The notes under the pieces are model-generated. The model was not told the origin of the DNA, did no database searches, and saw nothing but the letters and a program-made list of their open reading frames with translations. Below are positions 1 to 18,113 of a stretch of 64,000 bases of DNA, one piece after another (within the stretch, counting starts at the first letter, position 1; each line of letters opens with the position of its first letter). The stretch covers positions 1 through 64,000 of the forward strand of contig NZ_SULJ01000001.1 of the NCBI RefSeq assembly GCF_007115105.1, in the 5' to 3' direction. Source of the stretch: Clostridium sp. HBUAS56010 (GTDB lineage: Bacteria; Bacillota; Clostridia; Lachnospirales; Lachnospiraceae). The translations under genes and the position numbers were made by a program.

Positions 1-214
1 GCTCAATAAGTTCCTTTTGTTCCGATGTAAGATTGTCTTTCTCTTTAAAAGAACCACTATTATTGGCTTGCTGAATCCATTTGTCTAGCAAGGAGGAGGC
101 AATATCATATTCTCGGATAATGTCACACTTACGTTTTCCATTATTATATAATTGTACTACTTGGTTCTTGAATTCGTCCGTATAGGTACGGCGAGGGCGT
201 CTTTCAACAGTCAT
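1..214 (-). CDS. IS3-family transposase OrfA, partial
   Basis: This is the N-terminal part of a small helix-turn-helix transposase subunit; the rest lies left of the window. The visible 71 residues start MTVERRPRRTYTDEFKNQ and contain the typical OrfA pattern of a basic start, a TDEFKxQVVxLY helix and a recognition helix with the motif REYDIASSLLDKWI. In IS3-family elements OrfA binds the terminal repeats and is joined to OrfB by programmed frameshifting. The start is the ATG at 214, preceded by an AGGAGCTAAGCCC leader. The family is clear; the exact IS is not. Confidence 0.8.
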   Translation of the reverse strand, partial: MTVERRPRRTYTDEFKNQVVQLYNNGKRKCDIIREYDIASSLLDKWIQQANNSGSFKEKDNLTSEQKELIE

Positions 215-272
215 GGGCTTAGCTCCTTTTACTTTATAATTATATTTTACATGCCCTTATGATAACTGTCCA
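1..272 (-). mobile_element. end of an IS3-family insertion sequence
   Basis: Upstream of the OrfA start the sequence runs about 55 bp to a plausible outer end beginning TGGACAGTTATC when read on the minus strand, a form seen at ends of some IS3-family elements. The other end is outside the window, so the inverted repeat and target duplication cannot be checked. The boundary at 272 is a guess from sequence character. Confidence 0.4.
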
Positions 273-303
273 ATTAATTGTAGCCTATCCAATTTTTCAA
301 GTA

Positions 304-690
304 TCCTTAAAGGAGAATTGAAACGGGTAAAGGAATATTTGATAAGGACACAATGTCCCTTTCAAACAAATATCTTCTAAACTTACATCGTGTAATGTTA
401 GAAAGGTTCCAGAAGAACCCTTCAAACTTTTAGGAAGCAACAAGTTGTTACCTCGTAACTTGCATGTAATAATTAGGAAGGTTCTCAAAGAACCTTGCAA
501 ACTTTTGGTAAGCAACAAACTGTTACCTACCAACTGTAGGAATGGACACAATGTCCTTACCTAACTTGATGAAATTTATTGACACTTAAACTATAGGATT
601 TTTCTAAACATTCAAAACGAAGGATTGGTTAGGTTCAAATTGAACCCTACTAAGATTTTAGGAAGTTGCAACTTGCAACCTCGTAACTTT
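304..690. repeat. tandem degenerate hairpin repeat block
   Basis: This non-coding block holds about ten short inverted repeats with tiny loops. Clear ones are GGACA-CAA-TGTCC at 346-358 and again at 544-556, GGTTC-5-GAACC at 405-419, AAGGTTCT-CAA-AGAACCTT at 478-496, GGTTCAA-A-TTGAACC at 632-646 and GTTGCAA-C-TTGCAAC at 665-679. A nested one lies at 375-403. Three diverged units (about 403-470, 478-540, 630-690) share the order GGTT hairpin, an AAnnTTTT linker, a second hairpin, then ACCT. The arms differ between units but stay complementary. No protein-like reading frame is convincing. Confidence 0.7.
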
Positions 691-789
691 GCTTGTTACT
701 TATTAAATTATATATCTTGTGTGATCTAACAGAAACATAGTATTCACCTTTAAAGGGGAAAACGTAATACCAGGAGAAAATATTCCCTG

Positions 790-815
790 ATTCACCTCTA
801 TGCAATAGAGTGAAT
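790..815. other. stem-loop
   Basis: ATTCA-c-CTCTAT and ATAGAG-TGAAT form an 11-bp stem with one bulged C and a GCA loop. It sits between the hairpin repeat block and the nested structure at 858-939, continuing the inverted-repeat theme of this intergenic stretch. Confidence 0.55.
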
Positions 816-857
816 GTTAAATCGTTAGTATTTTGTTTTCGTTAAATAATGTTATTA

Positions 858-939
858 TCTGCCAAATGGGTACATGAAACTGTTCCACGACTTCACACCT
901 TGGGAAAGTCGTTGTGTACCTATTTGTCACCTTGGCAGA
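858..939. other. nested long stem-loop (possible structured RNA)
   Basis: Three concentric stems are visible: TCTGCCAA (858-865) with TTGGCAGA (932-939), GGGTACA with TGTACCT, and CACGACTT with AAAGTCGT. No run of T follows, so it is not a simple intrinsic terminator. It could be an RNA leader or the end of a longer structured transcript; direction is unknown. Confidence 0.5.
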
Positions 940-1001
940 TTTACAAACTCCATTGTGATATACTTATATAAAATTTAAATCATCAATTGAAAGGGAATAA
1001 A

Positions 1002-1181
1002 ATGGAAAAGTTTTTGAATATTGTTGGTGGAGTTTCTGTTGTTTTCATAGCAATTACTGCAATATGTTATCGGAACAGTGAAAAATATCCTCTTATCGGT
1101 TTGATAGTAGCGATTCTATTACTTTTAATTACAGCAATTAAAATATTCCGAAACAAAAGAAAAAAGAGATTTCAGATTTGA
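1002..1181 (+). CDS. small two-helix membrane protein, unknown
   Basis: This 59-residue protein starts at the ATG at 1002, preceded by AAAGGGA with good spacing; an upstream in-frame TTG at 987 is less likely. Two hydrophobic segments (about residues 7-24 and 31-49) are separated by a short polar turn, RNSEKYP, and followed by a basic tail, RNKRKKR. It is probably an inner-membrane protein with both ends inside. No family is recognised. It lies alone between structured non-coding DNA and the 26-bp direct repeats. Confidence 0.6.
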   Translation: MEKFLNIVGGVSVVFIAITAICYRNSEKYPLIGLIVAILLLLITAIKIFRNKRKKRFQI

Positions 1182-1314
1182 GCGTAGCGAAAATAGGGGT
1201 CTTATATGACTATATATTCTATATGATAGTGGAGTGTATTTTTTGCTACGCCAAAACGGGGTATACTTTCACATTTTTACCCAAAGTATGCTACGCCAAA
1301 ACGGGGTATACTTT
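1182..1314. repeat. 26-bp direct repeats and partner inverted repeat
   Basis: Two identical 26-bp copies, beginning TGCTACGCCAAAACGGGG, lie at 1244-1269 and 1289-1314. The GCTACGC of the first copy is complementary to GCGTAGC at 1182-1188; adjoining A and T runs extend the stem to about 14 bp around a 40-nt loop. The repeats sit just upstream of the YdjM-like gene, so they could be regulatory sites; only the repetition is seen. Confidence 0.6.
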
Positions 1315-1442
1315 TGAAAAAGCAATTTTAGAAGGAGGAATTTAAGAGGTTTGAGATTACAGAATCCCCAAAATATCAGATACAATAAAGTTTGAAAATA
1401 TATGAACAAGGGTGTAAAATATAAAAAAAGGGGTGCTTTAAT

Positions 1443-2045
1443 ATGATGGGGAAAACACATATTTTTATAGGTATGGCTTCGGCTCTTGCTATATCAGTTC
1501 CTAGCACAGGAGATGAGTGTTTGGCTGCAATAATGGGCGGAGCAGTGGGAGGAATAATTAGCGATATAGATATTCGATCAAATTCATATTGTAGAGATGC
1601 TTTATATGCAAGATTCATAACGGCTGGAATTGTATTGTTTTCATTTATTATTAATTTTTTTGTGGGTGGAGAAATATGGAGAAGTATCATCAACACTAAT
1701 TATGTTCGTTTATCTATTGGTATAAGTACCTTTTTGATGTTATGCTTGTTTGGTGTTTTTCAAAATCACAGAGAATTTACTCATTCTCTGATTGCATTAG
1801 TTTTATTCACTGTTTCAGTTGGATTATTTTGTTATCCAATAGCAGTTCCATTTGTAATTGGTTTTTTGTCTCATCTTTTATTAGATATTTTAAATAAAAA
1901 ACCTATAAGATTATTATTTCCTAAGGACAAAGGTATATGTCTGAAGTTATGTTATTCTAATAAAATAGCAGATAAAGTTTTTATGGTACTTGGAATTGTG
2001 GGAACTATTTTTGCTTTATCATACTCATGTTTTAGAATTTTCTGA
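1443..2045 (+). CDS. membrane-bound metal-dependent hydrolase, YdjM/DUF457-like
   Basis: This is a 200-residue multi-spanning membrane protein. The N-terminal MGKTHIFIGMA, the internal HREFTHSLI and the later HLLLDILNKKPIRLLFP fit the LexA-regulated YdjM/DUF457 family, in which the His residues are thought to coordinate metal. Hydrophobic segments occur near residues 25-40, 55-75, 85-105, 115-150 and 180-198. The ATG at 1443 follows AAAAAGGGG; a second ATG at 1446 is equally possible. Relatives are often SOS-controlled or carried on phages, which fits the LexA-like gene nearby. Biochemical role is unproven. Confidence 0.75.
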   Translation: MMGKTHIFIGMASALAISVPSTGDECLAAIMGGAVGGIISDIDIRSNSYCRDALYARFITAGIVLFSFIINFFVGGEIWRSIINTNYVRLSIGISTFLMLCLFGVFQNHREFTHSLIALVLFTVSVGLFCYPIAVPFVIGFLSHLLLDILNKKPIRLLFPKDKGICLKLCYSNKIADKVFMVLGIVGTIFALSYSCFRIF

Positions 2046-2091
2046 CAGTGTTTATGTAATTTTATTTTACAACAGTATTATAATTTGAAAC

Positions 2092-2130
2092 ACAAAAAGC
2101 ACACCCATTAATTTAATAATGAGTCTGCTT
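2092..2130 (-). terminator. intrinsic terminator of the large RNA
   Basis: Read on the minus strand, AAGCAGACTCATTA pairs with TAATGGGTGTGCTT around a short TTAAAT loop and is followed by a T run. It closes the transcript that begins near 2712. The complementary arms are long with few mismatches. Confidence 0.8.
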
Positions 2131-2712
2131 CTTATCGGAGAGTATTACTTCCCTTATTAACGCCGCTCTCCCTTAGTTCAAAGGGCGCCCCTAATCTTCC
2201 GGGATTTTAATCCAAGTACTTGATTTTGCCGTGCAAACTCACAAGGTTTCTTGCTCACTTGAATTAAAAGATTTTGTATGGAATCATGCACGCTAGATTA
2301 TTACCATACCATATTGACGATTTTGATTGATTATAACCATAGGCTCAACCATAAACCTACCCACCCATACGATCATATTCTATATCCATATTGTTTGGTT
2401 AATCTTAATATAGATATTTTATTGATATAATGCTCATTTTTTATTATACGATTCAGGAAGTTAGCATCTTTCTCTCAACTGGTATTATTGGCCTCACAGT
2501 TGGCTTTGAATCATAGTTTGACCGAGACTTTTGTCGATTTCATCTTATGATTATTGGCATCACGGTATATCGGTCATGATACCGTTTCACCTTTAACAAA
2601 GAGTAAAATATATGGAAGATTGTCGAACTCCCAAGACACTGTCCGGTCATATGCTATGCTCTCAGCCACCCAACGCTGAAAGCAATCTTGCCTACTTCCG
2701 AACTCATGTTCT
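2093..2712 (-). ncRNA. large structured non-coding RNA (about 620 nt; ROOL/GOLLD-like candidate)
   Basis: A perfect promoter at its 5' end and a strong terminator at its 3' end bracket about 620 nt without a credible reading frame on either strand. Many helices can be drawn on the minus strand: GAAC-atga-GTTC near the 5' end, GGCAAGATTG with CAATCTTCC, ACGGTAT with ATACCGT, TGACCGA with TCGGTCA, CAACTG with CAGTTG, GTATGG with CCATAC, CCCTT with AAGGG, and GGAGAG with CTCTCC. Size, ornate folding, a mobile-element location and an SOS-type box recall the phage-associated ROOL and GOLLD classes. I cannot match it to either consensus by eye, so the class is inferred. Confidence 0.7.
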
Positions 2713-2718
2713 GTATGA

Positions 2719-2747
2719 ATTATATCGAACATATGTGCTATTGTCAA
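2719..2747 (-). promoter_or_regulatory. consensus sigma-A promoter overlapped by a LexA-type box
   Basis: TTGACA (2747-2742) and TATAAT (2724-2719) are both perfect and separated by 17 bp. The spacer contains CGAACATATGTGCT (2726-2739 on the plus strand), one or two bases from the Gram-positive LexA operator CGAACRNRYGTTCG. It drives the large RNA leftward. A repressor bound here would block polymerase. Confidence 0.8.
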
Positions 2748-2959
2748 GCGTTTTACGAAAAGAGATTTAATTAATTTTTCTTCCTATATGATATTGGATT
2801 TGCAGTTCATTGTTCCCCATAATATCAATCATATCATTCAAAATTTGCCCCAATTTCCGCTTAAAATGTCTTAGGTGTAAACTTGTAAGGGTGTGACATT
2901 AGAAGTCCATATTAGCCTTTAAAACGCATTGTAGATACATTGGGATATGTTATGCCGAC

Positions 2960-4626
2960 GTGGTAAATTTACCCGCTCGGATATCTGAATCTTAAATTTA
3001 AGACGCAGATACCAGATCAGCATTTTCTATTTGATAAGTCAGTATTCAGTTTTTCGTTTTAGAGTGATAAAATAGTTTTTCACCCGCGGGGGATAAACCT
3101 ATAGTTTTCTCAATTCTGCGTAAAAGGTGCTTACCTGATAAGCACGAGGTTCCAATGGAACTTGGTGTCTTCTCCAGACGGAGAACACTCCTCTTGTCAA
3201 TCCAGATGGAGCACACTTTCCCAACTTTGGGAAGATGTACACTTCACGAAATTTCACTCCCAAAATTGGGGGATTGATTTTACTATTGCCTTGAAAGGCA
3301 TCTGCCATAACATCAAACACATCACATAATCACCCTTAATTTGCCCCTGTAACCTCTTGCCCTGACAACTCTCCACCTACACGCTTAAACGTCCATATGA
3401 GACAAATAAACACCTTGTACAGTCGGTGTAATGTAGTTATAATTCAGCCGAATTTACGGCTCTATTGCTCATATCATTTCCTATGCTCATATCATTTCCT
3501 ATTAAATGGGATTCTCTGACCTCGTGGTAAATTTACCACAAAGACATTCCCCAACGCAGAATCATGGAGTTTGGAAAGAAGATAAGCCTTTGGTAAATTT
3601 ACCAAACCCTATATCTAATGTTGACACTACAAAAAAGTTGGCTCAAAAGTTAGGAATGTAACTACTAACAATCTGTTTTATTTACCAATCTGGTAAACGA
3701 TTAGATGGAGTAACGGTTCGTGACTTCATCAACTAACGAATTTCTCCGTCAGTACTTTCCAATTTGGGAACTACTGAACCACTCGTACAAAATTTACGAG
3801 AGAATACCCTCCGACAAAGTCGTTCAGAACGACTACAATTTTGTTGTGCATCAGATGCACACCTTGATTAGCGCCCACCATTTGGTGGCAAGTAGATTCC
3901 TTAAAAATCAATGCTCCCAGATCGGGGAGTAGTAGACGGACGGACTTTCCCATTGGTAGGCTGAGTGAACAATCGGAAATTTCCGATACTTGAATAAATT
4001 TCGCCATCCAGATCTGGACTGCAAGCTGTTCCTGGTTTGCCAAGACCGAATTATTCGGTTTTGCCTTAAATCTGTGTACACGGTGTCAACTGTCTCAAAT
4101 TAGCGACGGTTCCCCGCGGGATACTGGTAAGAATCAGCATAGTTTTCGAAGAATACGCTATATGCTCGAGGTGTGGCTCTTGCCCACACGTTCACGAAGT
4201 CCCCAAATGGGATATTGTACTGTGACGACTGCTTAGTTCTAAGCAGTGTCCTTCAAAGACCACACACTATCTGTGTATCCTATATTCCGTAAAATGTGGA
4301 ATCCAGTAAGGGGTGTCTGGAATGGATATACCTTTTCACAATGATATATGAGGGGCGGTAAGTTGCCGTATCCCTACAGGGTGTCACAAATTTGAGATAC
4401 CTTTATATAGAAGTCTCGTCAAAAATGGTGTGTCATATTTGACCCTCCTTTAGAGGACTCGGAACTTTTTCCGACTGCTGCAACTTCGGTTCAAACCGAA
4501 ATCGGTACAGATTCCCTTTGAAGGGAAATCGTGAATAGGGTATCACCTAAAATGGTGGATACCCCTTACTTTTACCAGTGTACTTATGGGTACGTTGGTA
4601 AATCTCATTGTGCACATGTGCACAGT
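2960..4626. repeat. array of short sequence-diverse inverted repeats
   Basis: About 1.7 kb between two divergent promoters contain no convincing gene but dozens of short near-perfect inverted repeats. Checked examples are TTTGGTAAATTTACCAAA (3589-3606), GTGGTAAATTTACCAC (3524-3539), GTGCTTA-5-TAAGCAC (3127-3145), TTTACCA-ATC-TGGTAAA (3681-3697), GTCGTTC-A-GAACGAC (3819-3833), GTGCATC-A-GATGCAC (3846-3860), CCACCA-TT-TGGTGG (3875-3888), ATCGGAAATTTCCGAT (3972-3987), ACTGCTTAG-TT-CTAAGCAGT (4228-4247), TTCGGTT-CA-AACCGAA (4485-4500) and TGTGCACATGTGCACA (4609-4624). Most differ in sequence; a GGTAAATTTACC core recurs at 2962, 3526 and 3591. Confidence 0.8.
3467..3502. repeat. 18-bp perfect tandem duplication
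   Basis: The unit GCTCATATCATTTCCTAT occurs twice with no gap (3467-3484 and 3485-3502), inside the inverted-repeat array. It looks like a recent slippage product; no function is evident. Confidence 0.85.
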
Positions 4627-4680
4627 GAACCTGTACTTTCTGATACGGGTTGGTTTTGATTAATATGGCTTCAAAAAACT

Positions 4681-4720
4681 AGTACATATGTTTGCTTTTT
4701 TACTATGGTCATGCTATAAT
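4681..4720 (+). promoter_or_regulatory. promoter of the lexA-like gene with LexA-type box
   Basis: TTGCTT (4692-4697) and TATAAT (4715-4720) are 17 bp apart. The -35 element is overlapped by AGTACATATGTTTG (4681-4694), which shares the ACATATGT core with the box in front of the large RNA. This suggests autoregulation of the LexA paralogue and co-regulation of the RNA. Confidence 0.7.
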
Positions 4721-4756
4721 GGGTGAAGTATGAATCCAATGAAAGAAGGTGAATCC

Positions 4757-5380
4757 GTGCAAAAGAAACTGACAAATAAGCAAAAGGCAGTACTAGATTA
4801 TCTTAGGAATTATATTAGCGGGAAAGGATATCCGCCTACAATACGTGAGATTGCTTCTGAAATAGGGGCAAAATCTCCCTCCACAGCACAAATGTATTTG
4901 GAAACATTAATAGAAAAAGGTTACATTGAACGTGATCCTACAAAGCCTCGAGCTATTACGATTGTAGATGCAGAGCATAACAGTATGGCATCAAATGATA
5001 ATTGGTTTATTGATATTCCTGTGTTGGGTTCAATTTCAGATGAAAAGTCTTTTTTTTCGCAAGAAAATATTAAGGATTATTTTTCGGCTCCAACAGAGGC
5101 AGTGAGAGATAAGGATTGCTTTATGCTTATTGCAAAAGGAAGCAGCATGGAGAAGGCTGCAATATATGACGGTGACAGGGTAATTGCGTCAAGACAATCG
5201 AATGCTGAAGATGGCGATATAGTGATTGCATTGATAGGAGATATGGCTACAGTAAAACGATTCTATAAGGAAGATAATGGTTATCGCCTTCAGCCAGAAA
5301 ATGATTCAATGGAACCCATCATATTGAATAAAGCAACAATTTTAGGTCGGGTGGTAGGAGTCGTTCGTGATATGCGATAG
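4757..5380 (+). CDS. lexA: LexA-like repressor lacking the Ala-Gly cleavage site
   Basis: This 207-residue protein is LexA-like throughout: a winged HTH (KQKAVLDYLRNYISGKGYPPTIREIA, then ekGYIERDPTKPRAI) and an S24 peptidase domain with the Ser of GSSM and the Lys of ATVKRFY. Aligned by eye to Bacillus LexA, IPVLGSISDEKSFF replaces IPIIGKVTAGLPIT, so the scissile Ala-Gly is Asp-Glu. Self-cleavage should therefore fail. The GTG at 4757 is preferred: GAAGGTG precedes it, whereas the in-frame ATG at 4730 would sit only about 3 nt from the transcript start. It probably binds the two ACATATGT boxes at 2726-2739 and 4681-4694. Confidence 0.85.
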   Translation: MQKKLTNKQKAVLDYLRNYISGKGYPPTIREIASEIGAKSPSTAQMYLETLIEKGYIERDPTKPRAITIVDAEHNSMASNDNWFIDIPVLGSISDEKSFFSQENIKDYFSAPTEAVRDKDCFMLIAKGSSMEKAAIYDGDRVIASRQSNAEDGDIVIALIGDMATVKRFYKEDNGYRLQPENDSMEPIILNKATILGRVVGVVRDMR

Positions 5381-5908
5381 AGGAAAAGAGGTTATTATAA
5401 GAAAGTTTGAAATTATTGGAATTTATCGTTGACAATACCTGAAACAGGTGGTAATATTTAAAAAGAACATACGTTCTAGTTTTTGAGGTGAATATGAGAA
5501 GTATCCACACAAAAAAAGAAAGCCAATGCTTGGCGGCATCAGCTTTTGAGTAAGGTAACATTGGCGTGTTATCTTACAATATGTAATAAAAACTGCACAG
5601 ACAAAGCTGTACATAAGAATTTAGTCATTCATATTATAGCAGATACTTTCTAAAAAGTAAAGTCTACGGATAATTCAATCCGGCAGTTTCCAACACATTG
5701 ATTTTTTACAACTGAATAATGCTTTATTGCTCTATGCCTAATATCTGAATAAAATCTGTCTTTTATTACGATTCGTTTTAATTGTCAGAAAATATAAAGA
5801 TAGCATAGGTGCTATTTGTGTGCTACTGATATCGAATGATACCAGGTCTATTAAGCATACTCATTCTTTGGAATTCAATCAATATAAGATGAAAGGAGAT
5901 AAGAAAAT
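5381..5908. other. 528-bp intergenic stretch with stem-loops
   Basis: No gene is visible. Stem-loops are GCCAA-TGC-TTGGC (5522-5534) and GTAAG-g-TAAC with GTTA-t-CTTAC (5550-5577). Neither is followed by a long T run, so either could be a weak terminator or part of the inverted-repeat theme seen elsewhere. Nothing else stands out. Confidence 0.5.
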
Positions 5909-6184
5909 TTGGAGTCATCTAATCTACAACTGTATGATTTTAAGATACTGCGTGTGGTAAATGCGTTGGGGAGGGATTCCCCTGACAATGCAATTACTCT
6001 CGTAGAAATAGAAGAGGCCTTACCGAAAGTAGGTAGAAAATCGCATATGTCTACATATAAATATGTCCGCAAACTTGCAGATAATGGTTATTTGAATCGT
6101 GGTTTCTGCGATGGGCTGATTATTACATACTACATCAGTGATAAGGGGCAAGAGTTTTTGAAAAATGTTTGTGAAGGTAAATAA
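5909..6184 (+). CDS. small winged-helix DNA-binding protein
   Basis: The 91 residues resemble a MarR/PadR-type winged helix: an N-terminal helix with [15 protein letters not shown], a turn, a recognition region [19 protein letters not shown], and a beta wing [18 protein letters not shown]. Translation starts at a TTG (5909) after AAAGGAGATAAG, as no ATG fits. It heads the cold-shock gene run and may be a transcriptional switch of the element. A precise family is not assigned. Confidence 0.65.
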
Positions 6185-15278: not shown

Positions 15279-18113
15279 ATAGGAACAGATGAACAAAAGC
15301 AGAGTAGTGCTATTAATATTAGGAGCATACAGGCAGCAAGCCTTTATAGATGTAGCAACGGTTATAAATTTAAGATATCTAAGAAAAAAGAGAAACCAAA
15401 ATACAAAGAATCATACTTAGATTTTGGAAACGCAGTTATAAATAACAGTTTGTTTGCGGAATATGTGCGAAGGCATGGTGTGACCGTCAAAAAGCATATT
15501 AGTTTAGATTTTATAATGATTAAATTTGATTTTGGTGTTGAAGAAGATGATTCGGTTGAAGGAGAGTATAAGCCACCTGTTTCAGCAGAGGATCTGAGGA
15601 AGTACTATTATGAGAATGGTGCAGAGATTACTTGGCAAACATATGATTCTGAAACTGGTAAAGTGATTCCTGGTTCTGGGAAGACTATAATATACAGAAT
15701 GTTGATGAGAAGCCCTGGAAAAGCCAAGGAAGGACACTGTATTTTTATCAGAGATGATTTGCTGAATAAAACAAGGAAATATTTAACAATGGGTTTATGG
15801 GATAGAATGGAAAATGTAAAAGGTGCTCAAATTGTAGAGTTATCTGCATACGCTCCATTGATAACGGCCACGGCAATAGACTACATAAATATACCTTTGG
15901 AAAACATATTTGTATTAAAAGATGAAAAGGTGTCTGTATTTAAAAAGGCTGTTGCAGTTGGCGTTAAAGATATTGAATATTTTAGAACTGAAAAAGACTT
16001 TCCCCAATTTGAAGAATATATAAATAAATTTAATCTCACCTTTTATCAAAACAAAGCCAAAAAGAATCCGAATTTAGTAAAGATTGAGCGGACTAAAAAG
16101 GCACTTAAAGAGTACGGTATAGACATAAGTCTTTGTCCGACAAAAAAAGTTAAAGATAAAAAGAAACAGTGTTATGTTGACAGAGGAGATGAACCAGCAA
16201 AAATAACAAATGTTTTATGGGACGGTATGGGACTTGTTGATGATTCAATTTTTCCATCAGACGCAACAGGGTTTATTTACTGTAGAAGTCATTTCTTTAA
16301 ATCTTGTTTATTTAGAGGAAAAATACAAGAATATTTTAAAGATAACTATGGAAAGGAATACGAAACTGCTTATGAAACAGATATGATTGGTCGCAGAATT
16401 AAAGTGACTGACATAAAGGTGATCGTTACAGAAAATTCCTTAAAGTGGATAAAGTTTATAAAATTAATGAGTAAAGACGGATCTCTTGCTAGTGCATTTA
16501 ATTATTATAATGAATTTATGAAAAAGGATGGAGAGCGTTTTGCCATCGTAAAAACAGCGCATACTAGTAAGTGGGGGGATTTACAGAGAAGTTCGTTCCA
16601 GATGAATAATACTTTGCTTACTAGGGATTACAATGTACTACGTGAAATAGCAAAAGAGAGCATCGATTATTGTAATAGCCTAAAATTAAGTGATGAAGCT
16701 TTTTTAAGGCACTTAGACATAACTGGAAGTGCAAAATACAGTATCAATAATATACTCATTGATTTGTATAGAATTAATGACGAGTTTAGATACATGGAAT
16801 ATTTTAAACGCAAGAAAAGAAGTATAATTAACGAATTTAAAGACCAGAGGTTAAAGCTGGGAAAATTATTGCAGCAAGGCGACAATCTTACCATATGTGG
16901 TAATCCTGTTGCAATGTTACGAAAAGTTGTTAGTGAAACGAAAAAAAACTTCCTTGATGAGCAATGTTTTAAGACAATCTCAGATGGTATCCAATGCTAT
17001 ACCACTCGATTTCCTGAAAACGAGTATATTGCTGGGTTCCGATCTCCGCATAACTCGCCTAATAATATTGTGCATTTGGAAAATATTTATCCAGAAAAAA
17101 TTATAAGATATTTCCCAGATCTAAGTGACAATGTAATCATAATTAATGGGATTGGAACTGATGTACAGAGTCGACTTAACGGACAGGATTTAGATACAGA
17201 TTCAATTTTTGCAACGAATCAAAAGGATATAGTCAAATTGGCAAAGAAAGCATATCTTTACTACCCTACAATCGTGAATGATATAAAAACAATTGGTACT
17301 AGCGAATATGATAAAAGTATGGAATCATATGCAATAATGGATTCAAATATATCAAAGGCGCAGTATTCTATAGGGTATGCGAGTAATATTGCTCAGTTGG
17401 CACTAAGTTATTACTTTGATGTAGGGTGCAATAATAGGGATTTGGAAAATATATTTATCATGTGTTCCGTCCTGGCACAGGTAGCCATAGACTCCGCAAA
17501 GAGAAATTTTGAGATAAAGGTTAGCTCTGAATTATCAAGAATATCGAATATGGAATGTATGAAGCGAGAGCCTAGATATCCTGTATTCTATGCAGATGTT
17601 CAAAAGAATAATAACAAGAGAAAAAAAGGTAAAAAGTTGGAAATTAAGAAAATCGATGTTGCTTCTTTCAATTGCCCGATGGATATTCTGTATAAAATTA
17701 TTAATAATGAGATTATTAATCTTACAGAACATAAAGATTTGAACACTAAAATTTATAAGGAAAAAGATGAAGGAGTAAAACCTATCTTTGAGTATGATGA
17801 GAAATTAAATAATAGAAAGCAGTATCCTAAAGTCATAAGCATAGTTAAGGAATATCGTGAAAATGTCCACAAAATTGAAAAATCAAACGATAATTACCAT
17901 GTTAATAGATTGAACGAATTTGAACTTTGTATGAAAAAATTAAAGAATATCACCATTAATAAAAATACCATGGGTGCTTTGATTAATTATTCATTTGCGA
18001 AAGGGAATGAAGACATTAGAGATAGTTTGTTAATTGTGTTATATGATAAGAACAGAGAACAATTTTTGAAGTGTTTTAAAAAAACAGAAAAAACGTCACA
18101 GGAAGTGACCTGA
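15279..18113 (+). CDS. YonO/QDE-1-like single-subunit RNA polymerase, predicted AUA start
   Basis: A 944-residue protein whose catalytic signature is LNGQDLDTDSIF, near residue 630. This is the DxDxD Mg-binding loop of two-barrel RNA polymerases (NADFDGD in multisubunit enzymes, GGDLDGD in RdRPs). It is preceded by a second-barrel-like run, GFRSPHNSPNNIVHLENI, and VIIINGIGTDVQSR. Single-chain members such as SP-beta YonO transcribe late phage genes. The GSGKT near residue 125 lacks ATPase context. A stop codon lies two codons before ATA 15279, and GGGAGG ends 8 nt before it. The first standard start, TTG 15450, would delete 57 plausible residues. It lies before the tail genes, which it may transcribe. 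Confidence 0.75.
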   Translation: MGTDEQKQSSAINIRSIQAASLYRCSNGYKFKISKKKEKPKYKESYLDFGNAVINNSLFAEYVRRHGVTVKKHISLDFIMIKFDFGVEEDDSVEGEYKPPVSAEDLRKYYYENGAEITWQTYDSETGKVIPGSGKTIIYRMLMRSPGKAKEGHCIFIRDDLLNKTRKYLTMGLWDRMENVKGAQIVELSAYAPLITATAIDYINIPLENIFVLKDEKVSVFKKAVAVGVKDIEYFRTEKDFPQFEEYINKFNLTFYQNKAKKNPNLVKIERTKKALKEYGIDISLCPTKKVKDKKKQCYVDRGDEPAKITNVLWDGMGLVDDSIFPSDATGFIYCRSHFFKSCLFRGKIQEYFKDNYGKEYETAYETDMIGRRIKVTDIKVIVTENSLKWIKFIKLMSKDGSLASAFNYYNEFMKKDGERFAIVKTAHTSKWGDLQRSSFQMNNTLLTRDYNVLREIAKESIDYCNSLKLSDEAFLRHLDITGSAKYSINNILIDLYRINDEFRYMEYFKRKKRSIINEFKDQRLKLGKLLQQGDNLTICGNPVAMLRKVVSETKKNFLDEQCFKTISDGIQCYTTRFPENEYIAGFRSPHNSPNNIVHLENIYPEKIIRYFPDLSDNVIIINGIGTDVQSRLNGQDLDTDSIFATNQKDIVKLAKKAYLYYPTIVNDIKTIGTSEYDKSMESYAIMDSNISKAQYSIGYASNIAQLALSYYFDVGCNNRDLENIFIMCSVLAQVAIDSAKRNFEIKVSSELSRISNMECMKREPRYPVFYADVQKNNNKRKKGKKLEIKKIDVASFNCPMDILYKIINNEIINLTEHKDLNTKIYKEKDEGVKPIFEYDEKLNNRKQYPKVISIVKEYRENVHKIEKSNDNYHVNRLNEFELCMKKLKNITINKNTMGALINYSFAKGNEDIRDSLLIVLYDKNREQFLKCFKKTEKTSQEVT

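Follow-up and report, generated by a model that had tools for sequence, protein, structure and literature searches.

Rows of hairpin-forming units are familiar from integron attC sites, REP/BIME elements and CRISPR arrays, in which the units have a common sequence or common core sites. Hairpins in DNA may also be read by a polymerase: the virion RNA polymerase of phage N4 recognises DNA hairpin promoters, which are few in number and built on a common stem sequence with a 3-nt loop. A further example is provided by the typical telomeres of Streptomyces, where tightly packed, different palindromes fold as DNA hairpins and the bound protein prefers the folded form, according to PMC4513846. Among RNAs, PMC12286853 describes how palindromic loops of ROOL, GOLLD and OLE pair between RNA copies.

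Here, we describe a palindrome-rich locus, array A, at positions 2960-4626 of the window, by which we mean the whole 64,000-nucleotide stretch of DNA analyzed. Like typical Streptomyces telomeres, it is a close packing of different palindromes. Those telomeres are, however, the ends of linear replicons, whereas array A lies in a prophage and the related array B is similarly internal, ~176 kb into a 238-kb contig. The loops differ as well: in Streptomyces they read GCA and are closed by sheared G-A pairing, as against 0-2 nt in 17 of the 23 repeats of array A, a range seen in 34.5% of 2006 host repeats (binomial P 1.3e-4). In contrast to N4 promoters, there are dozens of palindromes with different arms, and no common stem with a 3-nt loop. 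Unlike attC sites, REP/BIME elements and CRISPR arrays, the arms are mostly different and the spacing is irregular (median 39.5 bp centre-to-centre). Self-comparison of arrays A, B and C returned mainly matches of a palindrome with itself, along with GGTAAATTTACC cores and a few short direct matches, rather than the near-identical direct repeats and unique spacers of a CRISPR array. ROOL, GOLLD and OLE are similar in being large structured non-coding loci, but array A has neither an Rfam match nor a strand bias. The first-pass annotation knew of no element like it, and searches of open PMC papers brought up no described counterpart.

The palindrome excess of array A is genuine and far beyond chance, which bears out the dense array that had been proposed. 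Non-overlapping perfect Watson-Crick inverted repeats with loops of 0-8 nt were counted, with 200 dinucleotide shuffles as the control. With arms of at least 6 bp and loops of at most 8 nt, the array holds 23 repeats, compared with 3.1 ± 1.7 in shuffles (maximum 8). The corresponding counts are 30 for arms of at least 5 bp (shuffles 12.2 ± 3.0, maximum 27), 14 for at least 7 bp (mean 0.8, maximum 4) and 7 for at least 8 bp (mean 0.2, maximum 3). A recount over 2941-4640, again with arms of at least 6 bp, gave 23 against 3.4, a number that 0 of 200 shuffles reach. At the same arm length, the 1-kb segments starting at 3001 and 3501 contain 13 and 14 repeats, while the rest of the 64 kb has 0-8. 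For the host baseline, 39 stretches of this contig, 780 kb in all, provided 1443 segments of 1667 bp; their mean is 4.3 and their maximum 11. AT-rich centres occur in 19 of 22 array A palindromes with loops of up to 4 nt, a raw count taken without a control.

The individual repeats, none of which is assigned a strand, extend from one end of the array to the other. The GGTAAATTTACC palindrome at 2962-2973 is the first of three copies of this core, the others starting at 3526 and 3592, and the nested TATCTG...CTTAAATTTAAG...CAGATA is present at 2982-3011, both as annotated; the latter has a homologous hairpin in each of B and D, and in the B copy one double change turns C-G into G-C. Further along are GTGCTTA-5-TAAGCAC (3127-3145; numbers between arms are loop lengths), TTCCCAA-2-TTGGGAA (3218-3233), GTGGTAAATTTACCAC (3524-3539) and TTTGGTAAATTTACCAAA, with 9-bp arms (3589-3606). 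Two adjoining hairpins occupy 3818-3861, namely AGTCGTTC-1-GAACGACT (3818-3834), which has a homologue in array B, and TGTGCATC-1-GATGCACA (3845-3861). CCACCA-2-TGGTGG (3875-3888) is surrounded by 16 bp that are identical in array B; ATCGGAAATTTCCGAT (3972-3987) has homologues in arrays B and D, and ACCGAAT-1-ATTCGGT (4045-4059) in array B. Toward the right end, marked by TGTGCACATGTGCACA (4609-4624), lie ACTGCTTAG-2-CTAAGCAGT, again with 9-bp arms (4228-4247), and at 4485-4527 the pair TTCGGTT-2-AACCGAA (4485-4500) and TTCCCTT-2-AAGGGAA (4512-4527). The palindromes had been called mostly unrelated, and their arms do mostly differ, but not all are unrelated: GGTAAA/TTTACC is found 10 times within array A, and the words AAATTT, GAGTGA, GGCGAA and CCAGAT recur across arrays A-D above expectation. 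The stretch is likely non-coding, as had been stated, in that no ORF of at least 100 aa is listed, although ORFs of 51-90 aa overlap it (the list has a minimum of 50 aa).

The window opens a 965-kb contig of a 3.95-Mb draft genome, probably of a Lacrimispora, which places array A 3 kb from the contig start. We read positions 1 to ~32.5 kb as a prophage truncated at the contig end; its genes include lexA and those for a ClpX-type protein, a tape measure, an integrase, an 887-aa PHROG 8308 protein and a minor tail protein, and the genes beyond it are, by eye, host-type. The array is situated where the first-pass annotation put it, with the promoter of a large RNA (2719-2747, minus strand; TTGACA-17-TATAAT, sigma-70-type, 12/12) on one side and the lexA paralogue of the prophage (4730-5380, plus strand; TIGR00498, 203.9 bits; PF01726 and PF00717) on the other. 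The promoter overlaps what we take to be an SOS-box-like sequence, picked by eye, and, read from 2747 to 2719, points into a structured stretch with better folding on the minus strand (z -4.1, versus -2.2 on the plus strand). Positions 2090-2712 on that strand are probably a large structured RNA, with its perfect sigma-70-type promoter, SOS-box-like sequence and terminator-like end (the last two by eye). Rfam gave no match to this RNA. A segment of 137 nt recurs at 88% identity in a genome of the same genus (L116 4590-4725), where a tRNA lies ~160 nt away.

Several neighboring blocks are found in related elements. The block adjoining array A (2840-2933, no strand) is 75% identical in the L. 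celerecrescens prophage, where it is inverted and inside the array. A second, weaker hairpin stretch at 297-720 (no strand) looks by eye like a pair of hairpins repeated three times in tandem, in degenerate form; when copies 1 and 3 are compared, one hairpin (U1, recentred) shows two pairing-keeping double changes and the other (U2) none. Positions 1161-1385, with two copies of GCTACGCCAAAACGGGGTATACTTT, are 89% identical over 227 bp in the phage that carries D (L255 4360-4585), and 1171-1310 are 92% identical over 142 bp in L. celerecrescens. Next after the 1161-1385-type block, the D phage has an AntA antirepressor gene; of that gene the window seems to keep only a remnant. Positions 760-930, with no listed gene of note, have a 77% identical counterpart in L116 (12335-12165), from a genome of the same genus. 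On the far side of lexA, 5796-5864 has an 81% identical match in L. celerecrescens (L117 11907-11839), upstream of a TubR-like gene there, and a TubR-like wHTH gene is located at 5909-6184; no TubZ was noticed in the window. In the window, the cumulative GC skew changes direction near 4 kb, with array A nearby, although skew also follows gene direction; in the D phage the skew minimum falls at 60-65 kb, as opposed to ~128 kb for D itself.

The 887-aa protein (15450-18113) carries the motif LNGQDLDTDS and falls into PHROG 8308, a group listed as function unknown. It is 53-68% identical in 16 of 21 genome-contig loci, where the names are, in all but one, Lachnospiraceae, Eubacterium, Clostridium or unplaced. 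The protein itself has no clear Pfam or NCBIfam match, and no PDB match at E 0.1. A D phage protein, however, matches both Pfam RdRP (1.8e-6) and the same PHROG 8308, from which we infer that the 887-aa protein is a YonO/RdRP-like polymerase. For the elements bearing A, B and C the polymerase match is direct, whereas for the D element it goes via PHROG 8308 and Pfam RdRP; a direct profile search of the D phage with close polymerases returned nothing. Polymerase loci numbered 33 in viral contigs, found with an alignment query, and 21 in genome contigs, and a scan of viral contigs with a single polymerase protein confirmed none. Other elements provided 20 stretches from the upstream side of the polymerase, several of which end at contig ends, and none of them scores like A or C. 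The promoter sequence of YonO is, in PMC5467207, described as still to be determined.

Three related arrays emerged. Array B, in L. celerecrescens 152B (NZ_JPME01000013.1; L117 16480-15580, minus strand), is a more degenerate homologue of A, located beside an integrase and ~10 kb upstream of the polymerase gene. It has six stretches in common with A at E ≤0.001 (80-100% identity over 16-51 bp), three of them inverted, and its strict repeat count is weak, 5 against 2.2, with 9 of 200 shuffles as high. D, ~0.35 kb in the phage IMG/VR 2524614847_000004, aligns with B at 82% identity over 116 bp and at 79% over 96 bp, and has hairpins in common with A in reshuffled order; its strict count is ordinary (2 versus 1.0; 47 of 200 shuffles as high). 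Array C, distant and dense, lies in a TubZ element of genome G131, from another genus (L095 8550-9260), with a strict count of 9 against 1.6 that 0 of 200 shuffles equal. Its neighbors are tubZ (Pfam) and two genes judged by eye, one TubR-like and one resembling an HTH regulator (the latter with no Pfam or NCBIfam match). Of the fixed 1-kb bins of L117 and L095, none attained z 3.

Searches for additional members were made in several collections. Window 2000-4740 matched, among 397 family genomes, its own and 11 others over 29-63 bp; seven of these 11 match at 2696-2779 and two inside array A. Array B gave one 25-bp match in the same 397 genomes. Since two candidates were scored per genome in both searches, absence among the 397 is weak evidence. 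Against 21 records, array B matched one, in two short stretches. Against phages, array A DNA gave one 40-bp match, outside the array, and array B none; against plasmids, array A gave none and array C one 40-bp match. The lexA-anchored viral contigs provided two loci, neither dense (L014, with 656 bp before lexA, and L015, which was scored only), and TubZ-bearing viral contigs three, with no dense stretch (L199 with 3.1 kb upstream). SPbeta has no comparable array, with at most 12 repeats per 1667 bp, 6 of them with loops of at most 2 nt. A pattern scan picked out eight stretches, seven matching the arrays over the 17-20 bp pattern only and one, L246, over more; of three further scans, two gave L246 alone and one nothing. 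Four viral contigs with polymerase relatives (L169, L148, L166 and L162) reached 50-62 per 800 bp, compared with 59.8 for C and 68.4 for A. Their short inverted repeats are at ~1.6 to 2 times the shuffle level, partly within likely genes, and we left these contigs out as array members by judgement, the repeats being partly genic and the excess wider.

The first-pass annotation held that pairing, rather than sequence, seems conserved. In hand-aligned hairpins of A, B and D, compensation is rare: 38 pair comparisons are one-sided as against 3 double changes that keep pairing, two of which are one event. By type, the one-sided changes that make or break a Watson-Crick pair are 15 G-T, 14 A-C and 9 others. 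The count omits rows S8, U1 and U2 and changes between two unpaired states; the alignments were hand-picked from BLAST matches, which biases them to similar hairpins, and the comparisons are not independent events. Because arm changes are mostly uncompensated, strict conservation of pairing is weakened, as it is by the words common to the arrays. Arms that change without compensation are what the first-pass annotation had named as refuting its proposal, and the homologues go part of the way there.

Folding statistics bear on whether the palindromes act as DNA or as RNA. Local-fold z, scored on base pairs within a span of 40 and given here as plus/minus strand, is -8.7/-8.5 for A, -5.6/-4.8 for B and -8.4/-8.4 for C; a rerun gave -9.1/-7.0 for the right part of A, -4.9/-4.2 for its left part, -4.9/-5.1 for B and -10.0/-10.6 for C. 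Twenty-six random host stretches range from -3.9 to 0.9, and the outside-array control 5400-5900 scores -3.8/-3.4. The large RNA (-2.1/-3.6, rerun -2.2/-4.1) and a tmRNA control (-3.1/-1.2, rerun -2.7/-1.5) each lean to one strand, and the 295-725 stretch is likewise strand-biased (-4.5/-7.6). Values elsewhere are -2.2/-2.5 for block 740-960, -1.4/-0.4 for window 720-1440, -2.1/-0.6 for L117 17960-16500 and -3.3/-5.0 for L116 4400-5330. Among 21 stem interruptions, 4 are G-T, 1 is A-C and 16 are other. As A, B and C show a nearly strand-symmetric excess and no G-U bias, the evidence favors a DNA-level feature—cruciforms or hairpins, or dyad sites—and disfavors the transcribed string of hairpins that had been suggested as one role. 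A transcribed non-coding RNA made of short hairpins, whose loops might be self-complementary and pair RNA copies as in GOLLD, ROOL and OLE, seems unlikely to us, despite several points on its side. Folding is strong (full-fold z -7.1 for 3720-4630), though equal on both strands; a 20-shuffle run gave -14.5 on plus and -6.4 on minus. D leans to the plus strand in RNA-like fashion (-4.5/-2.4), hairpins S3 and S6 show several G-T differences on that strand, the large RNA is next to the array, and symmetric kissing loops with palindromic centres are known in such RNAs, as PMC12286853 recounts. Yet promoter-like matches in 1-6000 are at chance (24 versus 23.7), and the best near the array on the plus strand (10/12, 3416-3443) is inside it. 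Terminator-like sites in 1-6000, some within the array, number 12 against 3.2 in shuffles, a surplus expected where hairpins abound. Rfam at the gathering threshold gave, across the window, no match in array A and none to ROOL, GOLLD or OLE, and at up to E 5 on 1-6000 two chance-level matches over the array, to other families (E 1.0 and 1.3).

Perfect dyads with 0-2 nt centres would equally suit a row of dyad-symmetric protein sites, serving either one phage protein of loose specificity, with a core such as AAATTT, or as a decoy of many regulators' operators. We rate such a row as unlikely, though slightly less so than the RNA. Summed over five array sequences, AAATTT (19 versus 5.5 expected) and GGTAAA (12 versus 3.5) are over-represented, and lexA, integrase or HTH genes are close by, but the arms differ widely. 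The 23 palindromes have 53 near-matches in 780 kb of host DNA (about a fifth of the genome), compared with 29.7 for shuffled arms (six arm shuffles per palindrome). The surplus is carried by only four palindromes (3149, 3681, 4007 and 4512), with no clear operator, and 9 of 16 palindromes of at least 16 bp have no near-match in the 780 kb. The decoy array of the first-pass annotation gains a hint at most. Quite improbable, in our view, is that the palindromes are a mutational by-product, arising where little-constrained DNA, often single-stranded near a replication start, has its imperfect palindromes perfected by template switching. Strand symmetry, the lack of G-U bias, the reordered blocks and the less perfect palindromes of the homologues would all fit such an origin. 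It leaves unexplained, however, the shared words and the hairpins at 80-100% identity in B and D, and in the D phage another long intergenic region shows no excess (L255 2400-4300, z 1.4/0.1).

We tentatively prefer to view the array as a structural cis-acting DNA element in the lysogeny and control region of a large temperate phage with an RdRP-like polymerase. Where the DNA is negatively supercoiled or single-stranded, with replication or phage transcription beginning close by, its palindromes would extrude to form small cruciforms or hairpins in a row. The cruciform or hairpin shape might then be recognized by a factor of the phage or the host, in replication start, segregation or polymerase loading. 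The differing arms, in turn, could keep the array from being lost via recombination between repeats. More ambitiously, and we consider this doubtful, such arrays may represent a new class of cis-element: a sequence-diverse string of DNA hairpins, with shape kept over sequence, that is read by structure as a replication or transcription start or loading site in phages with RdRP-like polymerases. If read by shape, the array would be a control element that keeps its form while its letters change, in a lineage with an unusual polymerase. The locus is simple and testable. Since sequence-based annotation is blind to elements of this kind, others may have been overlooked.
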